From NCBI RefSeq assembly GCF_020164495.1, contig NZ_JAIQYZ010000005.1, forward strand, positions 62,001 through 126,000: a stretch of 64,000 nt of DNA. Reading direction: 5' to 3'. Positions 25,651-39,948 of the stretch are shown here, piece after piece. Within the stretch, counting starts at the first letter, position 1, and each line of letters starts with the position of its first letter. The notes below the pieces were generated by a model that did no database searches, was not told the DNA's origin, and saw only the letters and a list, made by a program, of their open reading frames with translations. This DNA comes from Psychroflexus lacisalsi. GTDB lineage: Bacteria; Bacteroidota; Bacteroidia; Flavobacteriales; Flavobacteriaceae. The translations under genes were made by a program, and so were the position numbers.

Positions 25651-26031
25651 ATGTTAAAAAATGTAGTTTTCACCTGTATATTTATTGTTTTTTATTTTTC
25701 AGCAAACCCATGTTTTGCACAAGATAAATTAAACACTACTGAACTGAATATGGTGAAAAAATTAATCAAAGAAAAGCATCAACTAGAATCTAACAATGAA
25801 CTAAAGAGTTCCTATAAATTACAAATTTTTTCAGGTCCTTTAGACGATGCCAAGAACACCAGAGTTAAGTTCGAGACTTTAGAATTTGACTTAGATTCAA
25901 AAATAATTTATCAAACTCCAAATTATAAAGTATGGGTTGGAAACTACAGAAACAGAATCCAAGCCGATAGAGCTTTTGATAAAATAAAATCTGAATACCC
26001 AAATACGCTTATCATAAGGCCTGGGAAATAA
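25651..26031 (+). CDS. Secreted SPOR-domain protein
   Basis: SPOR domains bind septal peptidoglycan that lacks stem peptides. This 126-residue protein has a signal peptide (MLKNVVFTCIFIVFYFSANPCFA) and a C-terminal SPOR-like repeat from about residue 50 (SYKLQIFSGPLDDA, then YKVWVGNYRNRIQADRAFDKI), ending in LIIRPGK. It carries essentially only this domain, as do several small flavobacterial homologues. It is divergently transcribed from actA, and I see no functional link to its neighbours. Confidence 0.85.
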   Translation: MLKNVVFTCIFIVFYFSANPCFAQDKLNTTELNMVKKLIKEKHQLESNNELKSSYKLQIFSGPLDDAKNTRVKFETLEFDLDSKIIYQTPNYKVWVGNYRNRIQADRAFDKIKSEYPNTLIIRPGK

Positions 26032-26123
26032 AAACTAAGCATCAGCTGAGTATTCCTAAAATTTATATCTGTAAATTTTGAAACCTTGTAAGAATTTTCT
26101 CGTAAGTAAGACTAAAGTTAAAG

Positions 26124-26813
26124 ATGAATACCACTACAGCACTTTTAATTTTTGCAAGAACTGCTTCCGAAGAAAGTAAGCATAAGTCATTCAAGGCTTC
26201 TGAAGCTTTTTTCAGGTATCAAAATAAAAAGTTGCTTGAACTGGCTAAAACATCAGGACTTGACTACTTCTGGGTAGACGAAAGCCATCAAATTGGTGAA
26301 AACTTTGCCCAACGTTACCTCAACGCCATTCAGTTTGTTTTTGAAAAAGATTATGAACAGGTCATCTCCATAGGAAACGATTCTCCAGGCTTGAGTTTAG
26401 ATCAAATAAATCAATCTGTTCAACTTCTCAAATCCAGGGATATGTGTTTTGGTCCTTCTCAGGACGGAGGCTTCTATCTTTGGGGAGTAAAAAAAGCATT
26501 TTTCAAAAAAGAAGAGTTTCAGAATTTCCCCTGGAAAACTCAGAATCTGCTTTCAGTAATTTTAACTACTCTTGAGCAGCAATCAATTTCAGTAGATTAT
26601 CTCCAAACCTTAGGGGATCTGGATTTTCGGGAAGATGCTCAGCACCTGCTGAAAAACACCAAACTATCCTTCACACTAAAGGACATTTTGCTTCAGATGA
26701 TCAATCCGAAGCAAAATGTACTTTCCCTATTTCAACCCCATTTAAAATCAAAATTCACAGACGTTTATTATAATAAAGGATCGCCAAAAAGCTGCTTAAT
26801 ACAGACCTTTTGA
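26124..26813 (+). CDS. Divergent DUF2064 (TIGR04282-like) transferase-family protein
   Basis: DUF2064 proteins are GT-A-fold transferase-like proteins. This copy of 229 residues keeps the central GNDSPGLS and the family signature FGPSQDGGFYLWG near residue 115. It has lost the N-terminal FAKxPxxGxxKTRL nucleotide-binding motif: the equivalent stretch reads FARTASEESKHKSFKAS. The second copy in the window (34453-35076) has the motif intact, so the two are paralogues and this one may have changed substrate or lost activity. It lies upstream of the SusC gene on the same strand with 174 bp between. Function is unknown. Confidence 0.72.
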   Translation: MNTTTALLIFARTASEESKHKSFKASEAFFRYQNKKLLELAKTSGLDYFWVDESHQIGENFAQRYLNAIQFVFEKDYEQVISIGNDSPGLSLDQINQSVQLLKSRDMCFGPSQDGGFYLWGVKKAFFKKEEFQNFPWKTQNLLSVILTTLEQQSISVDYLQTLGDLDFREDAQHLLKNTKLSFTLKDILLQMINPKQNVLSLFQPHLKSKFTDVYYNKGSPKSCLIQTF

Positions 26814-26843
26814 AACTTTAATGAACATGTAATAATGTTATAA

Positions 26844-26973
26844 AATCCGTGTGAAATATCTGGTTCTATTAATTCTTCGTGAAAGCCTTGGAAGTAAACC
26901 TTGGAATTTTGGGCCTAAAATTTCAGGAAATCTGTCTGCCTTTTTAGGCTGATTAGACCTTCAATCACGGATT
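26844..26973 (+). promoter_or_regulatory. Possible structured leader RNA upstream of the SusC gene
   Basis: AATCCGTG at 26844-26851 is perfectly complementary to CACGGATT at 26966-26973, and the pairing can be extended by TGA/TCA across a small bulge. This stem encloses about 110 nt. Inside, GCCTAAAA (26913-26920) pairs with TTTTAGGC (26942-26949), and a competing shorter hairpin can form from GCCT at 26938 with AGGC at 26946. A direct repeat CCTTGGAA occurs at 26886 and 26899. The closing stem ends 14 bp before the SusC ATG. I match it to no riboswitch class I know. Confidence 0.4.
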
Positions 26974-26987
26974 AAACAAACACCATA

Positions 26988-29900
26988 ATGAAACTATTTC
27001 TCATTGCCGCCTGGCAATTATTTGTGATCACTATGTTTTCACAAAATACCTTTTATGAATCCAGAATCGTGGATAGTGATCAAAATCCTATTCCATATGC
27101 CGCTGTAAATGAAACAGGTACTCAAAACTATACCACTACAGATGCTAATGGCTTTTTTAAATTAAAGACCCAGTCTGAAAATTTTACACTTCAAATCTCC
27201 TCAATAGGGTTTAAAACTCTCAGTATTGAAGTAAAAAACGGCTTACTCCAGGATGAAATTATTTTAAAGGATTCCGAAGAGGTACTCAGTGAGGTTGTCG
27301 TGACAGCATTAGGCATCAAAAAAGAAAGACGCTCTTTGTCTTCTTCAGTTTCTACAGTAAATTCTGAACAAATGGTCAATGTGCCGCAAACCAATATGGT
27401 GAATGGCATGGCTGGTCAAGTAGCAGGGGTACAAATTACCAATGGATCCAGCGGCGTGGGGTCATCGTCACGAATTATCATACGTGGTGAAAATTCTCTA
27501 AGTGGCAGTAACCAGCCGTTGTTTGTGGTAGATGGAGTTCCGATTAGCAACGAACAAATCACCAGCGATCTTGTTAATAACGGCGCTTTACAGGAGGTGG
27601 ATTATGGTAATGGAGCTTCAGAGTTTAGTCCAGACGACATCGAATCGATTTCTATATTGAAAGGTGCTGGTTCTGCGGCACTCTACGGCACTCGTGCTGC
27701 AAACGGAGTTGTTCTTATCACTACAAAACGTGGTAAGAAATCTAAAGGCTTAGGAGTTAGCATCAATAGTAATTTTACGGTTGAAACTCTATTAACGCTT
27801 CCAGAATATCAAAATGAGTACGGTTTAGGTTCTAATGGCCAATATGCCTTCCAAGATGGAGTTGGGGCAGGAATAAACGATGGAGGCATAAGCAGTTATG
27901 GACCACGACTGGATACTGGTCTTTCGATTCCACAATTCGATAGTCCGTCTGTGGATATCAACGGTAATCCTGTTCGAGCAGGTGATGTGAGTTCCCGTAG
28001 GCTTGCAGATGGTTCTTTTACTCCTATCACTGCCACTCCCTGGGTTGCAAGACCAGATAACGTTCGTGATTTTTTCAATACCGGTATCACTTACCAAAAT
28101 AATATTGCCATAAGCAACCGAGGAGATATTGGAGGAATGCGTTTGTCTTACAGCAATCTGCGTAACGAAGGCATTGTTCCTAACACAGACCTGAAAAGAG
28201 ATGGTATTGCTTTAAGTCTAGACCAGGAACTTAGTGATAAGCTAAAGGTCAACACATTTCTGAATTTCATAAACACGCGAAGTGGCAATCGTCCCAACTT
28301 AGGTTATGGTTATGAAAATGTACTTTACGGCTTCAACTGGACGGGTCGCCAAGCCAACATTGGTTCTATGAGAGATTACTGGCAAGCTGGGCAAACGGGG
28401 CGTCAACATTATGATATCAATTATTTATGGCTCACTAACCCCTACCTCACTCTGTTTGAAAACACCAACAGTTTTGATAAGAACAGAATTTTGGGAAATG
28501 CATCTGCCACTTATGAATTTAGCGATCATTTATCGTTTAAAGCAAGAACGAGTATAGATACTTATGATGATCAAAGGAATTTCAGGAGGGCGGTTAGTAC
28601 CAATGCGAATCCTTTTGGTTCCTATAGAGAAGACAACGTGCGCTTTACTGAAATGAATACCGATCTTTTGCTTTCTTATCGAAATAAAATCAACGAAGAT
28701 TGGGACTATACGCTTACCGCAGGAGCCAATCGATTTGACCAGGAAATACAATATTCATTTTCTGAAGCCTCACAGCTAGCATTACCCGAAATCTTTACGT
28801 TAGCGAACTCTCGTTCCCCATTACTTGGGAATAGCGAAAGTTTTAAAAAACGCATCAACAGTGTCTATAGCACAGTCAATTTTGCATTTAAAAATGAACT
28901 ATACGCTGATTTCACGTTTAGAAACGACTGGAGTAGCACTCTGCCTTCAGAAAATAACTCATTCAGCTATTATTCTGCAGGGTTAAGCTATATAGCTTCA
29001 GAGCGCTTCAAGCTACCTGAAGCTGTATCATTTCTAAAATTCAGATTAAGTGCAGCATCGGTAGGAAATGATACAGACCCCTTCCAAAATTCACAAAATT
29101 TTCAGTTAAATGGTAATTATGGTTCCAACTTTAGAGTCACAAATGCCACAGTTTTACAAAACACCAACTTAAGACCAGAACGACTGGATGCTTATGAGGC
29201 TGGTTTGGAAACTTGGTTTTTTAAAGGAAGACTTCAACTAGATGCTTCTGTATATCAAAATGTAAGTAAAAATCAAATCATCTCCAGACCAGTTTCTAAT
29301 GCAAGCGGCTTTTCGAGCTTTAATGAAAATGGAGGTCAGATCAGAACCAGAGGTGTGGAAGTCATGTTGTCGGCATCACCTATTAAATTAAATGACTTTC
29401 AATGGAATACCGCTTTAAATTTTAGTACGTTTAGAAGTATTGTGACCGAGCTTCCACAAGGCGTGGATCAATTTGTAACTGCTACAGCAGACGTCTTTAG
29501 CGGTAGTGGCGGTTCTAACACAGTCTTTTATATCGCCAGAGAAAACGGCCGAGTAGGCGACATGTATGGATCTGGCTTTATTCAAATTGACGGTCAAAAC
29601 CTATTTGACTCCAATGGCTTACCCGTTCAGGATCCCAACTTACGTAAATTAGGAAATTACAATCCAGACTTCTCTGTAGGTTTGAATAACAGCTTTTCTT
29701 ACAAAAATTTTGATGTAAATATTTTATTTGACTGGCGTCAAGGTGGCACCATCGTGTCTAGAATTAAAGCCCTTGGAAGCACATCTGGCGTTTTAAGGGA
29801 AACCTTGGCTGGCCGGGAAGGAGGTTCGCCAAGTACTCGTTTTGCTGATGGAAATGGTGTTGTAGGAGATGGAGTGATGAATGTTGGATCTTCAGAAAAC

Positions 29901-30239
29901 CCAGTCTATGTGCCCAATACAACTGCAGCCGCGGCAAGCACTTTCAATAATGCTTTTTATGATAGAGGGAATGAAGAAAGTGCGCTTTATGATGCTTCTT
30001 ATGTTAAACTGAGGCAGCTCAGCATCTACTATACATTTCCTCAAAAAATAGCTAAATCTCTGGGTACAGAAGATCTGAAAATTGGACTCACAGGAAATAA
30101 TTTATTGCTATTTACAGAAAACCCTCATTTTGACCCAGAACTCAATGCCTTACAAGGCCGTAATATCGTTCAAGGCGTGGAAGATTTTTCATACCCTTCG
30201 ACTAGAAGTTTTGGCGTCAGTTTAAAAACCAATTTTTAA
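26988..30239 (+). CDS. SusC/RagA-family TonB-dependent outer-membrane transporter
   Basis: SusC proteins form the outer-membrane barrel of SusCD importers and take up oligomers or small ligands using TonB energy. The 1083 residues show a signal peptide (about 1-19), a carboxypeptidase-regulatory-like domain (about 25-100), a plug with VVVTALGIKKERRSL and the family pattern FVVDGVPI near 180, then a barrel ending RSFGVSLKTNF with a terminal phenylalanine. There is no sigma-interacting N-terminal extension, so it is not obviously an anti-sigma transducer. It is 10 bp from the SusD gene, and substrate is suggested by the downstream nucleoside hydrolase. Confidence 0.93.
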   Translation: MKLFLIAAWQLFVITMFSQNTFYESRIVDSDQNPIPYAAVNETGTQNYTTTDANGFFKLKTQSENFTLQISSIGFKTLSIEVKNGLLQDEIILKDSEEVLSEVVVTALGIKKERRSLSSSVSTVNSEQMVNVPQTNMVNGMAGQVAGVQITNGSSGVGSSSRIIIRGENSLSGSNQPLFVVDGVPISNEQITSDLVNNGALQEVDYGNGASEFSPDDIESISILKGAGSAALYGTRAANGVVLITTKRGKKSKGLGVSINSNFTVETLLTLPEYQNEYGLGSNGQYAFQDGVGAGINDGGISSYGPRLDTGLSIPQFDSPSVDINGNPVRAGDVSSRRLADGSFTPITATPWVARPDNVRDFFNTGITYQNNIAISNRGDIGGMRLSYSNLRNEGIVPNTDLKRDGIALSLDQELSDKLKVNTFLNFINTRSGNRPNLGYGYENVLYGFNWTGRQANIGSMRDYWQAGQTGRQHYDINYLWLTNPYLTLFENTNSFDKNRILGNASATYEFSDHLSFKARTSIDTYDDQRNFRRAVSTNANPFGSYREDNVRFTEMNTDLLLSYRNKINEDWDYTLTAGANRFDQEIQYSFSEASQLALPEIFTLANSRSPLLGNSESFKKRINSVYSTVNFAFKNELYADFTFRNDWSSTLPSENNSFSYYSAGLSYIASERFKLPEAVSFLKFRLSAASVGNDTDPFQNSQNFQLNGNYGSNFRVTNATVLQNTNLRPERLDAYEAGLETWFFKGRLQLDASVYQNVSKNQIISRPVSNASGFSSFNENGGQIRTRGVEVMLSASPIKLNDFQWNTALNFSTFRSIVTELPQGVDQFVTATADVFSGSGGSNTVFYIARENGRVGDMYGSGFIQIDGQNLFDSNGLPVQDPNLRKLGNYNPDFSVGLNNSFSYKNFDVNILFDWRQGGTIVSRIKALGSTSGVLRETLAGREGGSPSTRFADGNGVVGDGVMNVGSSENPVYVPNTTAAAASTFNNAFYDRGNEESALYDASYVKLRQLSIYYTFPQKIAKSLGTEDLKIGLTGNNLLLFTENPHFDPELNALQGRNIVQGVEDFSYPSTRSFGVSLKTNF

Positions 30240-30249
30240 TATAACTAAT

Positions 30250-31695
30250 ATGAAATATATACAACCCTTTCTTTTTGCATTGATGTTTCTATTGACATTA
30301 AGTTGCACAGAGGATTTTGAAGACATCAACGACAATCCTAATGCTCCTCAGGAGGTGAGTCCAGAATTTTTGTTGACCAATGTGATTTTAGAACAAATCA
30401 ATGAGCACACCTATACGCAAGGCTTAAGATTCAACAACTACCTGGCTCAATTTAATGCAGATGTCGAATTTGAAAGAATTGATCGCTATGAATTGGGCAG
30501 CAACTCTGGCTATTGGAACATGATATTTGGTCTATTGGCAGATTTGGAATCTATGAAAGAACTACCAGGCTACAATGATGCCTACGATGCTGTGGCAGAA
30601 ATTTACAGAGTTTATCTCTTTTCTCAACTTACAGACTTGTGGGGTGATGTGCCTTACAGCGAAGCCATTCAGTTCAATGAGCTCAACTTCACACCTGTCT
30701 ACGATACTCAAGAAGATATCTATATCCATCCAGAAAATGGCCTGTTAGCAAAACTGGAAGTTGCGGCTGCTCAACTTGAAGATACTAGCGAAAGTATACG
30801 GGGAGATGTGATGTTCAATAACGATCTTACCCAATGGTTCCAATTTGCCAACTCGCTACAAGTAAGATTTCGGTTACGCATCAGTAAACGATTTACAGAC
30901 TTTACCCCACTCCAACAGCTTGCAGATGGAGGCAACCTCATGCAATCCAATACCGATAATGCTGTTGTGCCCTACTTAAGCTCTGCTCCCAACCAATTTC
31001 CATTGTTCAATGCAGCAACAGGAATATTTCAAGGCTTAAAAATGAGTGAGACTGTAGAAAATCAATTAAAACAATGGAACGATCCTAGACTAGACGTTTT
31101 TTTCAAGCCAACTCCAAAAAGTATACTGGATGGAACTCCTGAATTTAAAGGTTTGCAAAATGGACTGAGCACACAATCCATAAGCGAAAGAGGAGTTGAC
31201 CTTAATGATCTTTCAGTTCTATCAGATCGGTTTAGGACTATGCCTAACGGAGTAGACGCTCAGATTATGTTGTATTCTGAAGTGCAATTTGCATTGGCTG
31301 AAGCTGTAGAGCGCGGTTTTATTTCTGGTAATGCAGAAGTCTATTATCAAAACGGAATTGAAGCTCATTTTGAATACTATGGAGCTTCACTACCAGGCGA
31401 TTACTTTACTCGAGATGCTGTCGCATTGAATGGTTCTACCGAAGAAAATCTTGAAAAAATACTTACACAAAAATGGCTAAGTCTATTTATGATTGGCCAT
31501 GAAGCGTGGTTTAATATCAGAAGAACAGGCTTCCCAAAACTGATGCCAGGACCAGACAACTTTAACGATAACAGGTACCCTGTACGCTATTTGTATCCAG
31601 AATCTGAACAAGCAGTGAATAAAGAAAATTATGATACGGCTGTGGAAAGAATCGATGGTGATGATATCAACTCCAAAAACTGGTGGGAAAATTAA
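30250..31695 (+). CDS. SusD/RagB-family substrate-binding lipoprotein
   Basis: SusD lipoproteins act as a lid on their SusC partner and bind the ligand on the cell surface. The 481 residues begin with a lipoprotein signal ending LSC near residue 20, followed by the acidic TEDFEDINDNPN typical of surface-exported lipoproteins. Helical repeat sequence of the SusD-like family runs to the C-terminus, where DDINSKNWWEN matches flavobacterial relatives. The nucleoside hydrolase follows 21 bp downstream. The ligand is not readable from the sequence. Confidence 0.92.
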   Translation: MKYIQPFLFALMFLLTLSCTEDFEDINDNPNAPQEVSPEFLLTNVILEQINEHTYTQGLRFNNYLAQFNADVEFERIDRYELGSNSGYWNMIFGLLADLESMKELPGYNDAYDAVAEIYRVYLFSQLTDLWGDVPYSEAIQFNELNFTPVYDTQEDIYIHPENGLLAKLEVAAAQLEDTSESIRGDVMFNNDLTQWFQFANSLQVRFRLRISKRFTDFTPLQQLADGGNLMQSNTDNAVVPYLSSAPNQFPLFNAATGIFQGLKMSETVENQLKQWNDPRLDVFFKPTPKSILDGTPEFKGLQNGLSTQSISERGVDLNDLSVLSDRFRTMPNGVDAQIMLYSEVQFALAEAVERGFISGNAEVYYQNGIEAHFEYYGASLPGDYFTRDAVALNGSTEENLEKILTQKWLSLFMIGHEAWFNIRRTGFPKLMPGPDNFNDNRYPVRYLYPESEQAVNKENYDTAVERIDGDDINSKNWWEN

Positions 31696-31716
31696 ATTAA
31701 CTCAAAACAAACTCTA

Positions 31717-32790
31717 ATGCAAAATCTATATAGAAATACGCTTGTCATCTTGTTTACACTTGCACTAATAAGCTGCCAAAGTGACCAAAGAAACACTAAA
31801 GAAAACACCGCTGACTTAGATGGTAAAGCCACAACCGAATCTACTTTAGATAAAACTAATGAAGAAGAAGGAAAGAAAAAAGTGTGGATAGATGCTGATG
31901 TGGCCGTAGGCATGAAGCGTTATGAACGCGAAGACTATAGCGATGTAGATGATGGCTTTGCTATTTTGCAGCTTTTTAAAGCTGAGAATATTGAGGTCAA
32001 AGGGATGAGTGCTGTATTTGGGAATACGAGAATTGATGATGCTTACCGCCTTTCTCAAAAAATGGTCGATGATTTCGCACCATACGAGATCCCCGTTTTC
32101 AAAGGAGCAGGAAAAGCAATCACCTTAGATGAGATAGAAACTAACGACGCTGTAGAAGCCTTAGCAGAAGCCTTGAAAAAAGAACCTTTGCATATATTGG
32201 CTATTGGCCCTGCTACAAATATTGCCACTTTAGTGTTGTTATATCCTGAATTGAAATCTCAGATAAAAGAAGTAGTACTTGTCGCTGGAAGACGAACCCC
32301 AACCTCCTATTTTGAAATTGGCAAACCAGAAGTAAAACACGCACCAGACCTTAACTTTGATTTGGATAACGATGCCTTTCGAGTGCTGTTGGAAAATGAG
32401 ATTTCAGTTGTCCTTTGCCCGTTTGAAATTTCCAACAAAGTGTGGATCACTCAAAAAGATCTAGGAAAACTGAGTGAAGGCGACCCAGCTAGCAAGTGGA
32501 TGGCCAAAGAATCACAACCCTGGTTGCAACAATGGCAGTCAATGGGAGAAAACGGATTTAACCCTTTTGATGTTTTGGCAAGCCATTATCTCATTGCCCC
32601 GGAAGATATTATACAAGAAGATCTAAATGCTCATCTGGAAATTCACCCCAATGACATGAAACTGGATTCTCCTGGAAATCATTTCAAAAATTATCTTCTT
32701 TGTAATGAAACTCATGGATCCACTGTGACATATTGTTATGATGTTGTTGAAGATTATCATGAAAAATTGATGGAAAGCCTTTTAAAATAA
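31717..32790 (+). CDS. Nucleoside hydrolase-family lipoprotein
   Basis: Inosine-uridine-type nucleoside hydrolases cleave the N-glycosidic bond, giving base plus ribose. This 357-residue version carries a lipoprotein signal (LFTLALISC near residue 20) and a 35-residue polar linker, so it acts outside the cytoplasm. The calcium-binding DxDxxxDD motif is present in an expanded form: DADVAVG, eleven residues, then DVDDGFA near 70. Later landmarks are LAIGPATNIATL near 165 and a DLNFDLDNDAF stretch near 210. Family relatives with this insertion exist, so specificity may differ from classic IU hydrolases. The placement behind SusCD implies hydrolysis of imported nucleosides in the periplasm. Confidence 0.85.
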   Translation: MQNLYRNTLVILFTLALISCQSDQRNTKENTADLDGKATTESTLDKTNEEEGKKKVWIDADVAVGMKRYEREDYSDVDDGFAILQLFKAENIEVKGMSAVFGNTRIDDAYRLSQKMVDDFAPYEIPVFKGAGKAITLDEIETNDAVEALAEALKKEPLHILAIGPATNIATLVLLYPELKSQIKEVVLVAGRRTPTSYFEIGKPEVKHAPDLNFDLDNDAFRVLLENEISVVLCPFEISNKVWITQKDLGKLSEGDPASKWMAKESQPWLQQWQSMGENGFNPFDVLASHYLIAPEDIIQEDLNAHLEIHPNDMKLDSPGNHFKNYLLCNETHGSTVTYCYDVVEDYHEKLMESLLK

Positions 32791-32804
32791 AAAAGCCGAG
32801 GATA

Positions 32805-33803
32805 ATGAAACATGTAGAAGAATTAACTGCAGACAAGGCCAGTTTAGAAAGCTATCTAAAGGGACAAGGTTGGTTACAACTGAATGAAAAGATCACAGCA
32901 TTAGAAATACCAGGCGCTGGAAATATGAATTTCACGATTCGTGTAAAAACTGGGGAGCGTAGTTTTATTGTAAAACAAAGCCGGGAGTACGTAGAGAAAT
33001 TCCCTCAAGTTCCAGCTCCCTCTGAACGTGCGCTACGAGAAGCAGAATTTTATCAGTTGGTTTCAAACAAGAGTTTGCTCAATGAAAAGATGCCAAAACT
33101 CATCGGCGTCGATAAAAAAAATCACGTCTTAAATCTTGAAGATTTAGGACACGGGGTAGACTATACCTTTTTATATCAAAAAGGGGAGCATATCGATGAA
33201 GCAGAGCTTAAGCAAATAATGACTTTCATTGCTAATCTCCATAAAGCCATAAACACCAAAACTACTGATACCAGACTGCCCAATAGAAAAATGCGAAAGC
33301 TCAATCACGAACATATATTTATTTACCCCTATCTTGAAGATAACGGTCTAAATCTAGACGACGTTCTCCCTGGCCTCCGAGCGGCAGGAAAACCATTTAA
33401 GCAGGATGAGGCCTTAAAGAAAAAGGTGGGAAAATTAGGAGATCGGTATCTACAGGATGGAAACACCTTACTACACGGGGACTATTTTCCTGGAAGCTGG
33501 TTGAAGACGAACGATGGGATTAAAATTATCGATCCAGAATTCTGCTTTTTTGGAGAGGTAGAATTTGAAATTGGTGTCACTTTAGCACACCTTAAAATGG
33601 CTGATCAACCAGATAAATTGGTAGAAAAGGCTTTGAGATTTTATAAAGATCGATCTGCTTTAAATGAATCTCTTTGTAAGCAATTCATGGCTGTAGAAAT
33701 TTTACGCAGGATTTTAGGTTTGGCACAATTGCCATTAAGTCTTGATCTAGAAAAACGAAAAGAATTATTGAACGAAGCGCAGTCAATTCTGATACCAGAA
33801 TAA
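32805..33803 (+). CDS. APH-fold sugar kinase resembling methylthioribose kinase
   Basis: This 332-residue cytoplasmic protein has the aminoglycoside-phosphotransferase kinase fold. The pattern most resembles 5-methylthioribose kinase (MtnK): GAGNMNFTIRV near 42, FIVKQSREYV with the ATP-binding lysine near 62, catalytic LLHGDYFPGSW near 222 and the metal site IIDPEFCFFGEVEFEIG near 240. MtnK-type enzymes phosphorylate the anomeric hydroxyl of 5-substituted ribose. It lies 15 bp after the nucleoside hydrolase, so the simplest reading is a kinase for the sugar released by that enzyme. Generic APH family is certain; the sugar is inference. Confidence 0.75.
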   Translation: MKHVEELTADKASLESYLKGQGWLQLNEKITALEIPGAGNMNFTIRVKTGERSFIVKQSREYVEKFPQVPAPSERALREAEFYQLVSNKSLLNEKMPKLIGVDKKNHVLNLEDLGHGVDYTFLYQKGEHIDEAELKQIMTFIANLHKAINTKTTDTRLPNRKMRKLNHEHIFIYPYLEDNGLNLDDVLPGLRAAGKPFKQDEALKKKVGKLGDRYLQDGNTLLHGDYFPGSWLKTNDGIKIIDPEFCFFGEVEFEIGVTLAHLKMADQPDKLVEKALRFYKDRSALNESLCKQFMAVEILRRILGLAQLPLSLDLEKRKELLNEAQSILIPE

Positions 33804-33892
33804 ATCACATGTTCTAGGCTAATTTAGTAACAGATGATAATGACAGGAAAAACCAATCGTTTCGAGTAACCTGTTCAAATATTAAAAGATGA

Positions 33893-33900
33893 TATCTTTG
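33893..33900 (+). promoter_or_regulatory. Candidate -7 box for the rhodanese-DUF2064-PNP genes
   Basis: TATCTTTG matches TAnnTTTG and lies 46 bp upstream of the TTG start at 33947. This suggests that the three downstream genes can be transcribed separately from the SusCD operon. No -33 TTG at standard spacing is visible. Confidence 0.4.
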
Positions 33901-33946
33901 AAAAAAGATTCTAAAGGTTTAGAGAAACACACTTAAAACTACAGAT

Positions 33947-34453
33947 TTGAAATACAAACTTTTAATTTCAATTATTATGTTTGGAGGACTTCCGTTTTTG
34001 GGAATCTCCCAAAACAAGATTGACAAAGCTTTAAAACGATACAACTCAAATTCAGTAGAATACATTAGTACTGAAGACTTGATTCATCTGAAAAATTCAA
34101 GCGACAACATCAAAATTTTAGACACGAGAGAAGCCTCAGAATATAGCATAAGTCATATTCAAGACGCCATTTATGCTGGATACGATGATTTCAACTTGCA
34201 ACACATTCAAGATAAAATCGATACCAAAGATACCATTGTAGTCTATTGCTCCATTGGAGTACGTTCCGAAGATATTGGAGAAGAACTTCTAAAAGCAGGA
34301 TATGAAAATATTTATAACCTCTACGGAGGAATTTTTGATTGGATGAATAAAGACCAAAAGGTCTACGATCACAAAGGAAATCCAACCGATAAAGTCCATG
34401 CCTACGACAGATTTTGGGGTGATTACTTAGAAAAAGGACAGAAAGTATATTAA
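33947..34453 (+). CDS. Exported single-domain rhodanese-like protein
   Basis: Rhodaneses move sulfane sulfur, or related soft anions, on an active-site cysteine. The domain spans about residues 40-145 of 168 and has the loop VVYCSIGVRSE with its cysteine near 103, plus ILDTREASEY and LYGGIFDW. A TTG start gives MKYKLLISIIMFGGLPFLGIS, a plausible signal peptide; the first ATG would remove half of it, so TTG is preferred. The protein probably works in the periplasm. Its stop overlaps the start region of the DUF2064 transferase gene, so the two are translationally coupled. Confidence 0.85.
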   Translation: MKYKLLISIIMFGGLPFLGISQNKIDKALKRYNSNSVEYISTEDLIHLKNSSDNIKILDTREASEYSISHIQDAIYAGYDDFNLQHIQDKIDTKDTIVVYCSIGVRSEDIGEELLKAGYENIYNLYGGIFDWMNKDQKVYDHKGNPTDKVHAYDRFWGDYLEKGQKVY

Positions 34454-35076
34454 TGGATAGATTAATTATAGTTTTTGCAAAAAACCCTGAACTTGGCAAG
34501 TGTAAAACACGTTTGGCCAAAAGCATTGGAAGTGAAAAGGCTTTAGAGGTTTATAAAAAATTGATAAAACACACGGCTAAAATAATCAGCAACGTTAGCG
34601 CTAGTCGGGCAGTGTTTTATTCAGAAAAAATTCAAAAAAATGACTTCTGGGACGATTCTCAATTTCATAAATCAGTACAGAGCAGCGGTCATCTTGGTGA
34701 GAAAATGCAAGCTGCTTTTGAATGGGGTTTTGCTCAAGGCTATTCTAAAATTTGTATTGTTGGTAGCGACTTATTTGAGCTTGAAACTTCGGACTTTGAA
34801 AAAGCATTTCTGGAATTAGAACAAAAGGACCTGGTTTTTGGACCCGCCAACGATGGTGGATATTATCTCATGGGTATGTCTACGTTTTACAAAGAAGCCT
34901 TTCTGGAAAAAGCATGGAGTACAGAAACTGTCCTAAAGCAAACTCTAAAAGATTTAAAGAATCAAAACATTGCATTTCTGAAAACCAAAACCGATATTGA
35001 CATTGTAGAAGATTTGGTAAAACATCCAGAATTTCATCATGTTATACCACACCAAATTTTAAAAAAACTAACATAA
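34453..35076 (+). CDS. DUF2064 (TIGR04282) GT-A-fold transferase
   Basis: This family is known from comparative genomics as a transferase that travels with radical-SAM/selenoprotein (ArsS-like) systems. All signatures are present in 207 residues: FAKNPELGKCKTRLAKSIG (about 8-26), IVGSDLFELE near 99 and the nucleotide-sugar pocket FGPANDGGYYLMG near 130. It is coupled to the rhodanese gene and lies 4 bp ahead of the PNP gene. The acceptor and donor are not known. A divergent paralogue lies 7.6 kb upstream. Confidence 0.85.
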   Translation: MDRLIIVFAKNPELGKCKTRLAKSIGSEKALEVYKKLIKHTAKIISNVSASRAVFYSEKIQKNDFWDDSQFHKSVQSSGHLGEKMQAAFEWGFAQGYSKICIVGSDLFELETSDFEKAFLELEQKDLVFGPANDGGYYLMGMSTFYKEAFLEKAWSTETVLKQTLKDLKNQNIAFLKTKTDIDIVEDLVKHPEFHHVIPHQILKKLT

Positions 35077-35080
35077 ATCT

Positions 35081-35893
35081 ATGAAAGACAGACTAGAAAA
35101 AACTGTAAGCTACCTTGAAGAAAAAGGATTTGAAAATCCTGAAATCGGCATCATTCTCGGCACAGGCTTGGGAAAACTGATTGACCAAATAGACATTGAA
35201 AAAGAAATAAGTTACAACCACATTCCACACTTCCCGACAGCAACAGTGGAGTTTCATCAGGGCAAATTTATTTTTGGCAGCTTAGGTGGCAAGAAAGTCG
35301 TAGTTATGCAAGGACGTTTTCATTTTTATGAAGGCTACTCGCTGCAAGACATTACTTATCCCGTACGCATTATGAAGGAATTGGGCATACAGAAGCTTTT
35401 GGTGTCTAATGCCGCAGGCGGTATCAATAAAACTTACAAAAAAGGCGACTTGATGCTTATTGACGATCATATCAATTTACAAGGCGGTTCGCCATTAGCA
35501 TTCAAAGGCGTTTCTCAACTTGGCGAGCGTTTTGTCGACATGTTGGCACCTTACGATAAAGAGATGAACACCCAATTCAAAACCATCGCCAAAGAACATG
35601 ATATCAGGCTTCATGAAGGCGTTTACGCTTCCGTGGTGGGTCCCCAATTGGAAACTCGTGCAGAATATCACTATCTCGGCATCATTGGCGCCGATGCTGT
35701 GGGAATGAGCACTGTGCCAGAAGTTATTGTCGCCAATCACCTAAAATTACCTGTTTCGGCTATTTCGGTCTTAACCGACGAATGTGATCCCGATAATTTG
35801 CAACCTGTGAATGTCGAAGAAATCATTGCCGTGGCGGGCAAAGCCGAACCCAAACTCGTACAACTTTTCAAAAGCCTTATAGAAAACATGTAG
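35081..35893 (+). CDS. punA: Purine nucleoside phosphorylase, trimeric type I (PNP/MTAP family)
   Basis: This family cleaves purine nucleosides with phosphate to base and ribose-1-phosphate. In 270 residues it shows phosphate-binding GIILGTGLGKL near 25, HFHFYEG near 86, the VVGPQLETRAE segment with the purine-binding glutamate near 190 and MSTVPEVIVA near 210. At the position where human PNP has the purine-contacting asparagine (LITN), this protein has aspartate (VLTDECD), as methylthioadenosine phosphorylases do, which suggests tolerance of 6-aminopurines. It follows the DUF2064 transferase by 4 bp. The stop codon TAG is the first three bases of an interspersed repeat. Confidence 0.9.
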   Translation: MKDRLEKTVSYLEEKGFENPEIGIILGTGLGKLIDQIDIEKEISYNHIPHFPTATVEFHQGKFIFGSLGGKKVVVMQGRFHFYEGYSLQDITYPVRIMKELGIQKLLVSNAAGGINKTYKKGDLMLIDDHINLQGGSPLAFKGVSQLGERFVDMLAPYDKEMNTQFKTIAKEHDIRLHEGVYASVVGPQLETRAEYHYLGIIGADAVGMSTVPEVIVANHLKLPVSAISVLTDECDPDNLQPVNVEEIIAVAGKAEPKLVQLFKSLIENM

Positions 35894-36040
35894 GGCGTTT
35901 TCGGGCTTTTCGCTGCAAGTCCGCCTGCAGTTTTAGAGAGTTGTAAAGCTATAAAAAGAGCTTCTTTGCAGTCGCTTTTTTATAGCCACACCTCTAATCC
36001 AAAACCGCAGTGCGGGCTTTACGCTTTAATCCCTAACGCA
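35891..36040 (+). repeat. Interspersed extragenic repeat A, copy 1
   Basis: This 150-bp GC-richer unit begins TAGGGCGTTTTCGGGCTTTT, at the PNP stop codon itself, and ends CCCTAACGCAAGTC. It contains an inverted repeat GCTATAAAAA with TTTTTATAGC. The second copy at 51253-51428 shares both ends, the GCTATAAAAA motif and the internal AGCTTC..TTTG..GTCGCTTT block. I see no coding capacity. Confidence 0.75.
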
Positions 36041-36070
36041 AGTCTTAAGTCTATTTAAACAATAAATTTT

Positions 36071-36078
36071 TAAGTTTG
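36071..36078 (+). promoter_or_regulatory. Candidate -7 box for the PagL-like gene pair
   Basis: TAAGTTTG matches TAnnTTTG and lies 20 bp upstream of the ATG at 36099. It follows repeat A copy 1 directly. A -33 element is not evident. Confidence 0.35.
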
Positions 36079-36098
36079 CAGCAACCAATTTAATATTA

Positions 36099-37205
36099 AT
36101 GATCTCGAAGTGCTTTATCAGTCTAAGCTTTATATTGTTTAGCTTTTGTTGCTTAGCTCAGGAAAAAGCATCCAAAGCATCCGATGTGTTTCATGCCGAT
36201 TACCTCTATGGCAGAATCATGAGGCATAGCCCTCAAATTTTACATCTCATCCAGGGAACTACTCAAGGAGTTTTGTTTTCCTGGGAACGGGAAACCTTTG
36301 GCGAAAAGGAGTGGCAGCAATTGTACAATTACCCGAGTTATGGTGCATCCCTGTTAATTCAGGATATGGGATCGCCAGAATTGGGTAGAGTGTATAGCTT
36401 ACATGGAGAGTACAGGTTCTTCTTCCTAGATCGAAAGCTTAACCTTAAAGCGGGACTTGGTGCAGGATATATCCCAAACACTTATGACCCCATAGAAAAT
36501 CCGAGAAATACAGCTTACGGATCGTCCTTCACCGCTTCAATATTATTCGGCCTGGAGTACCGCTTCCAGCGCCTTTTCGATTTGCCTTTGGATTTTAAAG
36601 TCGGGACCTTTTTAGTCCATTATTCCAATGGGAAAACTAAATCACCAAATACCAGCACCAACAACTACGGACTTCAGGCCGGATTGAATTATAACCTATC
36701 TGAAACGAAAAAGGAATATAACACCTCATCTTTAGAACCCATATCCAAAGACTGGACCTGGGATATTTTAGCAGCATCGGGAGCCAATGACAGTGGCATT
36801 TGGGGAGAAGCAAACGAAGCGTTTTTAACGCTCACAACTTCTGTCAACAAACGCCTTTCTCACCGCAGTGGATTAAGTTTAGGACTAGATGCTTTTTTTA
36901 CACCCTCCGTCAAAACCTTTATCCAATACCGTGCTGCAGCATTTCCTGAATTGGACAACTTCCAAGGGGATGAAGATTGGAGACGGGTTGGCTTATTTTT
37001 GGGTCATGAATTGTATTTAGGAGGTTGGAGTGTGATGTCTCAAATAGGTTATTATGTGTATTATCCGATAGATTATCTTAACAGGGAATATATAAAAGTA
37101 GGATTGAGACGTTATATCACCGATAAATTTTATGTGTCAATCGTGCTTAAATCTCACTATTCTAAAGCGGAGGCTATAGAATATGGAATAGGAATACGTT
37201 TATAA
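36099..37205 (+). CDS. PagL-like acyloxyacyl hydrolase (lipid A deacylase family)
   Basis: PagL-type enzymes are outer-membrane barrels that remove an acyl chain from lipid A. The 368 residues start with a signal peptide ending LAQEKA near 21. Alternating strand sequence follows, with the catalytic pair context HYSNGKTKSPNTST near residue 170; histidine and serine of the HxSN motif are present. The protein is about twice the size of pseudomonad PagL because a second barrel-like segment occupies residues 210-368. It is 8 bp from the head-GIN gene. Barrel identity is firm; enzymatic activity is inferred. Confidence 0.8.
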   Translation: MISKCFISLSFILFSFCCLAQEKASKASDVFHADYLYGRIMRHSPQILHLIQGTTQGVLFSWERETFGEKEWQQLYNYPSYGASLLIQDMGSPELGRVYSLHGEYRFFFLDRKLNLKAGLGAGYIPNTYDPIENPRNTAYGSSFTASILFGLEYRFQRLFDLPLDFKVGTFLVHYSNGKTKSPNTSTNNYGLQAGLNYNLSETKKEYNTSSLEPISKDWTWDILAASGANDSGIWGEANEAFLTLTTSVNKRLSHRSGLSLGLDAFFTPSVKTFIQYRAAAFPELDNFQGDEDWRRVGLFLGHELYLGGWSVMSQIGYYVYYPIDYLNREYIKVGLRRYITDKFYVSIVLKSHYSKAEAIEYGIGIRL

Positions 37206-38561: not shown

Positions 38562-38987
38562 ATGAAAGCTATTTTTCTCTTTATTGGATTGTCTTTATTG
38601 ATGAGCTGCGAAAACGATGATAACTTGAGGAGGAATCCTAATTTGCTAAATATAAATGTGAACTACGAGGTCAATTTAAACCTGCCTCAATTCAATAACC
38701 TCAACTTTAGCGGTAACTCGGTTTATATACCCGGTCAGGGGAATCAAGGGCTTATCATAGTAAATTCGGGTAGTAGTTATTTAGCTTGGGATGCTGCAGA
38801 CCCTAACCTTGTTCCAAGTGACTGCTCAAGACTTATTATTGATGGTTTGAATGCTGAATCTACATGTGATACACCTCCAAATAGTTATAGCCTAATAACA
38901 GGTCAACCTTTAGTAGAAGATTTAAGATATCCACTATTTGCTTACAGGATAACTGAAAGTGGCGGAGTACTCAGAATATTTAATTAA
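38562..38987 (+). CDS. Small lipoprotein resembling a Rieske fold without iron ligands
   Basis: The 141-residue protein has a lipoprotein signal ending MSCEND (cysteine near 16). The body (NSVYIPGQGNQGLIIVNSG, then SDCSRLIIDGL and ESTCDTPPNSYSLITGQPL near 95-115) follows the strand order of Rieske-type proteins in Flavobacteriaceae. The CxH...CxxH ligands are absent: only lone cysteines remain and there is no histidine in the region. I therefore call it Rieske-like in fold only. Function unknown. Its stop overlaps the convergent ABC ATPase gene by 8 bp. Confidence 0.6.
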   Translation: MKAIFLFIGLSLLMSCENDDNLRRNPNLLNINVNYEVNLNLPQFNNLNFSGNSVYIPGQGNQGLIIVNSGSSYLAWDAADPNLVPSDCSRLIIDGLNAESTCDTPPNSYSLITGQPLVEDLRYPLFAYRITESGGVLRIFN

Positions 38988-39948
38988 GCCTATTTTTAAT
39001 CTTATCCCAATCAAAGTCGAAGTTTACATTATCGTTTATTTTGAAATCTTCAGTTGAAGTCGCAAAAATTGATTTTGAATTGAAGTCGATTTCGATAAGA
39101 TAATGTGAGCCTTTAAAATAACTAGATGTAACCCTGCCTTGATATTTTGAAGTTGTACCCACTCTAATCTCGTGAGGAAAAATAATAACTTTATCATCTG
39201 CCAGTTCGAGATTAAATTCACAGGTGTCAATTACATTGACATCTCCAAAAAGTGATGCACAGTACTCATTTTTTGGCTTGCTATATACCTGCTGAGTAGT
39301 TCTAAAATCTAGAGATTTTCCGTCTTTAAGAACCATAGTAAAATCAGAAAATGGCAAGACGTCATCTGCATCATGAGTCGCAAAAATGCAGGTAATTTCT
39401 TCTTTTTTCAAAAATTTAAAAAGTCGACGCCTTAATCTATGTTTCAAAAATTGGTCAATATGGCTAAAGGGCTCATCTAATAAAATCAGTTCTGGAGGCT
39501 TTGCTAAAGCTTGTGCAATTGCTACTCTCTGTTTCTGCCCGCCGCTTAATGTTTTAACTTTTTGATGTTTAACCTCATCGAGATCAAACAGCGCAATAAG
39601 TTCATCACTTCTTCTTTGATTTTCTTCGGGAGTTTCTCGCGATAAAAACTTCTGTATATTCTCCTCTGAAGTAGTAAAAGGCATCAAATCAAATTCCTGA
39701 GACAGATGTTTAAATCTTTTATAGCCTGGTACAAGATTATAAGCAGGTCCCAAAATTTCTTCTTTTCTCCATTTTATGGATCCCTTATCAAGGTCAAAAA
39801 GTCCATAAACTGTTTTTATAAGTGTGCTTTTACCACAGCCACTTTCACCTATTAGGGCTAAGTGATCTCCTTTTTTTAATTCGAAATTGATATTTAAAAC
39901 GCCCTTATCATTTTCGTGTAAATAGGTAAGGTTACTGACTGTTAGCAT
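38980..39948 (-). CDS. ABC transporter ATP-binding protein
   Basis: The 322 residues hold a complete ABC ATPase: Walker A GESGCGKST near 34-42, signature LSGGQKQRVA near 139, Walker B ELILLDEPFSHID near 159 and switch histidine FATHDADDV near 192. After about 230 a TOBE-like C-terminal segment (IFPHEIRVG, then GRVTSSYFKGSHYLIEI) resembles PotA/FbpC-type importer ATPases. No permease or binding protein gene lies nearby, so the partners are encoded elsewhere. It converges with the 38562 lipoprotein gene, with 8 bp of overlapping coding sequence. Confidence 0.9.
   Translation of the reverse strand: MLTVSNLTYLHENDKGVLNINFELKKGDHLALIGESGCGKSTLIKTVYGLFDLDKGSIKWRKEEILGPAYNLVPGYKRFKHLSQEFDLMPFTTSEENIQKFLSRETPEENQRRSDELIALFDLDEVKHQKVKTLSGGQKQRVAIAQALAKPPELILLDEPFSHIDQFLKHRLRRRLFKFLKKEEITCIFATHDADDVLPFSDFTMVLKDGKSLDFRTTQQVYSKPKNEYCASLFGDVNVIDTCEFNLELADDKVIIFPHEIRVGTTSKYQGRVTSSYFKGSHYLIEIDFNSKSIFATSTEDFKINDNVNFDFDWDKIKNRLN

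Follow-up and report, generated by a model that had tools for sequence, protein, structure and literature searches.

What does a bacterium do with an outer-membrane importer, a nucleoside hydrolase and a sugar kinase that are encoded side by side among genes of an arsenosugar-type cluster? The question is raised by a stretch of 64,000 nucleotides of Psychroflexus lacisalsi, a member of a salt-loving genus (contig NZ_JAIQYZ010000005.1, positions 62,001 to 126,000; one of the 53 contigs of a 3.04 Mb genome), hereafter the window, in which four genes follow one another on the + strand at 26988-33803 with gaps of 10, 21 and 14 bp. They encode a SusC-type TonB-dependent outer-membrane importer (26988..30239; TIGR04056, 605 bits against a cut-off of 368), a SusD-type surface lipoprotein of the SusD-like_2 family (30250..31695; PF12771, 324.6 bits, cut-off 27), an IU-type nucleoside hydrolase (NH) with an expanded loop and a lipoprotein-type N-terminus (31717..32790; PF01156, 113.9 bits, cut-off 34.2), and an APH-fold sugar kinase resembling the methylthioribose (MTR) kinase MtnK (32805..33803; best NCBIfam match TIGR01767, also PF01636). 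Adjoining genes with matches to both families, the first two form a SusCD pair. A sequence-only reading had recognized these four genes, their short spacing and their families, all of which our searches bear out, and had taken them for a nucleoside SusCD locus. That interpretation was half right; the context is an arsenosugar-type cluster, in which the cassette stands in for ArsS and ArsM. The gene run, too, extends beyond the four genes, with one DUF2064 gene (DUF2064a) upstream and a rhodanese gene, a second DUF2064 gene (DUF2064b) and a purine nucleoside phosphorylase (PNP) gene downstream on the same strand. The substitution of the cassette for ArsS is well supported, and the cassette probably supplies the same pathway input as ArsS. 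From the exchange of genes in one chromosomal slot, a set relation across 199 genomes, the topology of the hydrolase, the kinase pocket, the lack of mtnA and the presence of importers in ArsS clusters, we arrive at a reading with about an even chance of being correct, in which the cassette is a salvage (import-and-activate) branch that takes the place of de novo synthesis in an arsenosugar-type pathway.

The exchange is seen within the genus Psychroflexus, where the slot is bordered by a SPOR-domain gene, with or without DUF2064a, on one side and by rhodanese-DUF2064b on the other. At six loci (L047-L052) it is occupied by an AhpD-like gene and arsS, with arsM as well in L048, L049 and L051; the L048 proteins exceed the NCBI arsenosugar cut-offs (ArsS 448.7 over 300, ArsM 569.7 over 400, AhpD-like 185.7 over 120). 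The window and L026 carry SusCD-NH-kinase in this position, P. gondwanensis (L025) a TonB receptor, the ABC importer YnjBCD, NH and kinase, and L057 a TonB receptor, NH and kinase, with the rhodanese gene visible and no DUF2064b in its stretch. In three further loci (L053-L055) a TonB receptor is combined with YnjBCD and with a radical SAM protein 316-320 residues long. Except in L047, L050 and L052, each of these cassettes has DUF2064a before it. Among 13 Psychroflexus genomes, ArsS scored over its cut-off in six, the kinase was found in three and YnjB, the binding protein of YnjBCD, in three, with no overlap; the one genome with none of them is 52% complete. The genome of the window itself gave no match to ArsS (TIGR04167) at E <= 0.001, no relative of the L048 ArsM at E <= 1e-60, and no YnjB.

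A corresponding relation was found in 199 genomes of the family, representing 198 genera (thresholds E <= 1e-10 for the kinase, 1e-60 for ArsS and ArsM, 1e-30 for TIGR04282 and TIGR04283; one kinase genome, G037, was seen over 3 kb only). TIGR04282, the family of DUF2064b, was present in 158 genomes, ArsS in 147, TIGR04283 in 138, arsenosugar-type ArsM in 116 and the kinase in 22. All 147 ArsS genomes and all 22 kinase genomes carry TIGR04282; conversely, the 11 TIGR04282 genomes in which ArsS is missing all have the kinase, no genome has TIGR04282 with neither, and TIGR04282, ArsS and kinase are all missing from the other 41. If the genomes are taken as independent, that is, with phylogeny ignored, the chance of finding the kinase in all 11 is 2.6e-11. 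ArsS presence changes eight times on the tree of the 22 kinases, as in shuffles (mean 7.7). ArsM, as profiled with one query protein that speaks for the arsenosugar type and not for other ArsM types, occurs solely alongside ArsS and in none of the 11 kinase-only genomes, and TIGR04283 occurs solely alongside TIGR04282 and is retained in nine of these 11. Where a genome has both ArsS and the kinase, TIGR04282 mostly lies with the latter: in 9/11 it is within 10 kb of the kinase, and ArsS is at least about 335 kb away or on another contig. These set relations, together with the slot exchange, link the cassette to DUF2064, and a stand-alone four-gene nucleoside locus was accordingly rejected.

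The importer shows the same attachment. The gene immediately upstream of the outer-membrane importer is DUF2064a in 24/24 distinct informative loci (25 rows, of which L056 was dropped as a duplicate identical in sequence to L026), a count that leaves out four importers at a locus edge, SusC pieces of fewer than 700 residues (L035) and, in L030, a second SusC that is a distant paralogue and has no DUF2064a upstream. A TonB receptor without SusD takes the place of SusC in L025, L032-L034, L036 and L057, and the order DUF2064a-TonB receptor-kinase-NH reaches beyond the Flavobacteriaceae in loci of Emticicia, Lacihabitans and Pedobacter (L032-L036). Importers also occur within ArsS clusters. In 18 ArsS genomes with an ArsS-TIGR04282 spacing of 8.1-9.8 kb (L087-L092, L094-L105), chosen by eye for that spacing among the matches listed and not necessarily all such genomes, an importer lies between ArsS and the rhodanese gene in every case, compared with 0/9 hand-picked short-spacing controls; 17 have SusCD with an SSS symporter and a metallophosphoesterase, and one (L087) has a TonB receptor, YnjBCD and a radical SAM protein. 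DUF2064a preceded the importer in 10/11 loci of a second long-spacing batch.

Recurrence of the cassette among relatives, which had been proposed as a check, gave a divided answer. The gene order SusCD-NH-kinase recurs in other Bacteroidota and is therefore not due to chance. In the stretches seen around 36 distinct kinase loci, NH is present in 26, a DUF2064 gene in 26 and an outer-membrane importer in only 17, so that the importer-NH-kinase arrangement is the form of the closer relatives of the window, and the pairing of hydrolase and kinase, whose loss from homologous loci was to have told against the original reading, is mixed. An ADP-ribosylglycohydrolase-family protein is found in nine of the ten kinase loci without NH. 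Many distant kinases, mostly with such a protein, adjoin DUF2064b yet show no importer nearby. The kinase loci without DUF2064 are L037, L059, L061, L062, L064 and L065, plus L027, L030, L031 and L058, which are cut at SusC.

The hydrolase has a lipobox and the expanded loop that the sequence-only reading had pointed out (DADVAVG...DVDDGFA). It combines its PF01156 match with an N-terminal Asp cluster (D59, D61, D78, D79), whose residues we take to have the roles familiar from this enzyme family, and these four together with D211, N213 and D285 are invariant in 14 homologues. Its N-terminus is hydrophobic and of export type, in agreement with the earlier proposal of a riboside hydrolase acting outside the cytoplasm. 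Several relatives carry YnjBCD within the homologous cassette, and among 27 distinct hydrolases an export-type N-terminus, defined as a mean hydropathy of at least 1.7 over the 12 residues before the first Asp motif (a limit set after the N-termini had been inspected, and not a signal-peptide program), was found in 19/19 at loci without YnjBCD and in 0/8 at loci with it. The L025 hydrolase falls just below the limit at 1.66; its longer open reading frame overlaps ynjD and an internal start lies after ynjD. The simplest reading of this correlation is that the riboside is cut inside where YnjBCD is present and outside where it is absent, the free sugar reaching the cytoplasmic kinase either way. 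On this correlation and on its own N-terminus, cleavage by the window hydrolase is placed outside the cytoplasm.

The kinase is 75-79% identical to the kinases of three Psychroflexus species, and in the PDB it matches, at E <= 0.001, nothing but two MTR kinases, 2pyw and 2olc. The likeness to MtnK extends to the active site. Work on MtnK (PMC2194712) describes as its motifs a G-loop GxGNxN, an HGD loop, DXE and an RR pair with E or K three residues before, and its conserved residues as binding the nucleotide, polarising O1 and holding ribose O2/O3. N40, N42, D226, D243, E245, E298, R301 and R302 are present in 37/37 distinct sequences of the family, as are GxGNxN, DPE and E-x-x-RR; H224, the H of HGD, is found in 36/37. 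HGD and DPEF had already been noted in the window protein. The score of 117.7 bits is well below the TIGR01767 cut-off of 275, however, and the family forms a clade of its own (support 1.0) against six MtnK from plasmid records, each annotated next to mtnA. A kinase match was obtained in 150 plasmid records, seven of which were fetched, namely these six and an unannotated one from Embleya (L073), which was not used. The differences concern the pocket for the 5-methylthio group, which the same paper places at W74, L180 and L345 in B. subtilis MtnK. As read from a sequence alignment, the W74 column is I, V or L in 37/37 kinases and Trp in 5/6 MtnK, the L180 column His in 37/37 and Leu in 6/6, and the L345 column Leu in 35/37 kinases. 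The MtnA fold (PF01008) was found in 0/21 genomes, comprising that of the window and 20 relatives, and in 9/14 control genomes. With the catalytic and ribose-binding residues kept, the methylthio pocket changed and mtnA lacking, the enzyme is expected to phosphorylate, at C1, a ribose bearing some 5-group other than methylthio, and the product predicted for the window kinase is the 1-phosphate of a 5-modified ribose.

The proposed route would run as follows. SusCD would bring a 5-modified ribofuranoside from outside through the outer membrane; the exported hydrolase, to judge by its family, would remove the aglycone outside the cytoplasm; the free 5-modified ribose would cross the inner membrane by some carrier; and the kinase, judging from its conserved site, would phosphorylate C1. 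The resulting 5-modified ribose-1-phosphate could then join the DUF2064b and TIGR04283 steps that in relatives may be fed by ArsM, ArsS and perhaps PNP. The product credited to ArsM and ArsS is 5'-deoxy-5'-dimethylarsinoyl-adenosine, from which, in the de novo branch, a phosphorylase could free arsenoribose-1-phosphate for DUF2064b and TIGR04283. A dimethylarsinoyl-riboside, that is an arsenosugar, appears the most likely single ligand, and we hold the identity of the imported sugar as an arsenosugar to be evenly balanced between true and false. Of the earlier proposal of a nucleoside, possibly 5'-modified, the 5'-modified riboside stays plausible; a nucleoside as ligand is not supported. According to a review, the adenosylation of arsenic during the biosynthesis of oxo-arsenosugars is the work of a radical SAM enzyme (PMC12159101). 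A further source names arsenosugars as the arsenic species that dominate most in marine algae and reports them from hypersaline Mono Lake together with a species listed as AsRib, which we read as free arsenoribose (PMC7345539).

Several observations weigh against the salvage-branch reading. Since the SusCD-SSS-phosphoesterase cassettes accompany ArsS, the presence of an importer in the slot need not mean that ArsS has been replaced, and in L048, L049, L051 and L106 DUF2064a is retained although no importer is there. Two Psychroflexus species outside the 13 genomes break the pattern: in P. gondwanensis (L025) a single cassette contains both the kinase and YnjBCD, and in P. aestuariivivens (L024) the canonical slot is occupied by ArsS, with the kinase cassette located elsewhere. 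ArsS is found, L024's included, in 4/13 kinase-bearing genomes behind the named loci. Within the family the kinase lies less than 10 kb from TIGR04282 in just 14/22 genomes (two far apart on the same contig, four on other contigs, two without listed position), and TIGR04283 is missing from 2/11 kinase-only genomes. Ten of the 36 kinase loci lack NH, 19 the importer and ten a DUF2064 gene in the stretch seen. The invariant His in the 5-pocket would equally fit a plain 5-OH, as in unmodified ribose, and PNP stays in kinase-only clusters even though the kinase route should not need it. The word arsenosugar is for TIGR04282 and TIGR04283 an NCBI label, and the case for arsenic is genomic. Finally, no inner-membrane carrier for the sugar turned up: the sequence-only reading had seen no sugar transporter nearby, and among the ten proteins scanned at 25651-37205 there is indeed none besides SusCD, nor is there a YnjB in the genome. 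The rest of the window was outside that scan; an ABC-ATPase-like open reading frame lies beyond it on the opposite strand (38980-39948).

The main rival keeps the pathway position and changes the sugar, which would be plain ribose or another non-arsenic 5-modified ribose. Nucleosides would be cut outside, the ribose would become ribose-1-phosphate, and DUF2064b and TIGR04283 would make from it a ribosyl glycoside or lipid without arsenic. The hydrolase does belong to the nucleoside hydrolase family, the His replacing Leu180 could hold a 5-OH, and the evidence from slot, profile and topology fits this version equally. Set against it, the adjoining PNP should by our reasoning give ribose-1-phosphate from nucleosides, which would make an importer and an ATP-dependent kinase redundant, and the rule of ArsS or kinase suggests a product otherwise obtained from ArsS only. 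We consider this rival unlikely, with perhaps a quarter of the weight. Ordinary scavenging of nucleosides or ribose for carbon, with DUF2064 as a chance neighbour, is less probable again. Its model would be the ribose-utilization system rus of Bacteroides thetaiotaomicron, which combines SusCD and a nucleoside hydrolase with ribokinase-fold (PfkB) kinases and its own permease, and SusCD, nucleoside hydrolase and sugar kinase in the window do reproduce the anatomy of rus. To our knowledge DUF2064 genes have no known product. Chance proximity nevertheless accords poorly with TIGR04282 in 22/22 kinase genomes, with a kinase in 11/11 ArsS-negative TIGR04282 genomes and with DUF2064a directly before the importer in every informative locus, and the kinase resembles MtnK and falls outside the ribokinase family.

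Least probable of all, and very improbable in our estimate, is salvage of 5-methylthioribose or 5-deoxyribose by the MtnK-MtnA route. TIGR01767 is the best family match of the kinase and the GxGNxN, HGD, DPE and RR motifs are kept, but the score is less than half the cut-off, the methylthio-capping Trp and Leu180 are replaced in every kinase of the family, and all six fetched annotated mtnK genes sit beside mtnA. The search for mtnA-type genes that the sequence-only reading had suggested came out negative in all 21 genomes, which makes MTR salvage unlikely; with the pocket changed as well, this route was rejected.

Compared with known systems, the salvage-branch reading places the window closest to the arsenosugar cluster (ArsM, ArsS, AhpD-like TIGR04169, rhodanese NF045521, TIGR04282, PNP, TIGR04283), with which it shares the slot and the DUF2064, rhodanese and PNP flanks, whereas importer, riboside hydrolase and sugar kinase are found instead of ArsS and ArsM. 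It differs from rus in its MtnK-like kinase and arsenosugar-type neighbours; neither a PfkB ribokinase nor a ribose permease is among the ten proteins scanned, which is as far as the search for them went. In E. coli K-12, ydjX-ydjY-ydjZ-ynjA-ynjBCD-ynjE (L074, 7402-14775) lines up three kinds of protein that also occur in the arsenosugar clusters and cassettes, namely one that is AhpD-like, the importer YnjBCD and a rhodanese, and possibly serves a related uptake function; it differs in that its annotated genes include neither DUF2064 nor a sugar kinase or nucleoside hydrolase. We know of no gene for arsenosugar uptake or salvage, and among the open-licence literature matches listed no title or abstract start dealt with the import of arsenosugars, with SusCD in their clusters or with this kinase. 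The parts belong to known families, and there is a real chance that they make up a new kind of system. More tentatively, and falling somewhat short of an even chance, the Bacteroidota may use one slot of the arsenosugar cluster for interchangeable cassettes that take up organic arsenicals through Sus-type or other TonB-dependent importers; in this Psychroflexus such a cassette would replace arsenic methylation and adenosylation entirely. If true, the cell would build arsenic-containing glycosides from scavenged arsenosugars only, by the first dedicated arsenosugar uptake and salvage system. A cassette substituting for ArsS also names genes (kinase, hydrolase, SusCD, YnjBCD, DUF2064) for testing arsenosugar uptake and cluster function, and links a class of SusCD systems to something besides glycan feeding.

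The flanking genes, all on the + strand, belong to families tied by NCBI to arsenosugar biosynthesis. DUF2064a (26124..26813) is a divergent TIGR04282-like protein (95.4 bits, below the cut-off of 134; PF09837, 67.9); in an alignment it keeps the GND and GP..GG.YL.G stretches and is without the N-terminal K.P..G..KTRL of DUF2064b. Downstream follow a rhodanese-domain protein of the cluster type (33947..34453; NF045521, 199.7 bits, cut-off 145) and DUF2064b (34453..35076), which scores 203.8 bits for TIGR04282, named by NCBI an arsenosugar biosynthesis glycosyltransferase, and has weaker similarity to the guanylyltransferase CofC (TIGR03552, 41.2, below the cut-off of 105). The PNP (35081..35893) matches NF006054 (345.8 over 218) and TIGR01700 (298.8 over 293.35) and is part of the DUF2064b neighbourhood in most clusters examined; TIGR04283 is encoded elsewhere in the genome. 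An attempt to read the PNP specificity from single residues was dropped, as the base-site Asp and the missing usual His recur in other PDB-listed PNPs. No glycan-degrading enzyme was found beside SusCD among the ten scanned proteins, and the locus thus does not qualify as a polysaccharide utilization locus. Promoter scans gave numbers at chance level, and terminator-like sites numbered 15 against 9.1 expected (sd 2.7), none of them in the gaps between the described genes.

Two partner proteins recur elsewhere. Distant kinases are accompanied by a DraG-like ADP-ribosylglycohydrolase-family protein, in some loci plus NH, in L037, L060, L066 and L076-L085, and except in L037 they are found near DUF2064b and PNP; in L066 a GH32-like gene, as read from its sequence, lies beside the pair. 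In 8/8 loci (L030, L031, L035, L036, L053-L055, L087) YnjBCD comes with a radical SAM protein 314-354 residues long; those of L030 and L055 were scanned and neither passes any NCBIfam cut-off. In three Psychroflexus genomes this protein occupies the place held elsewhere by hydrolase and kinase. One of these cassettes, in L053 (5416-15769), looks decayed, with TonB receptor, YnjB and YnjD each in two frames and five unlabelled open reading frames between YnjB and YnjC.

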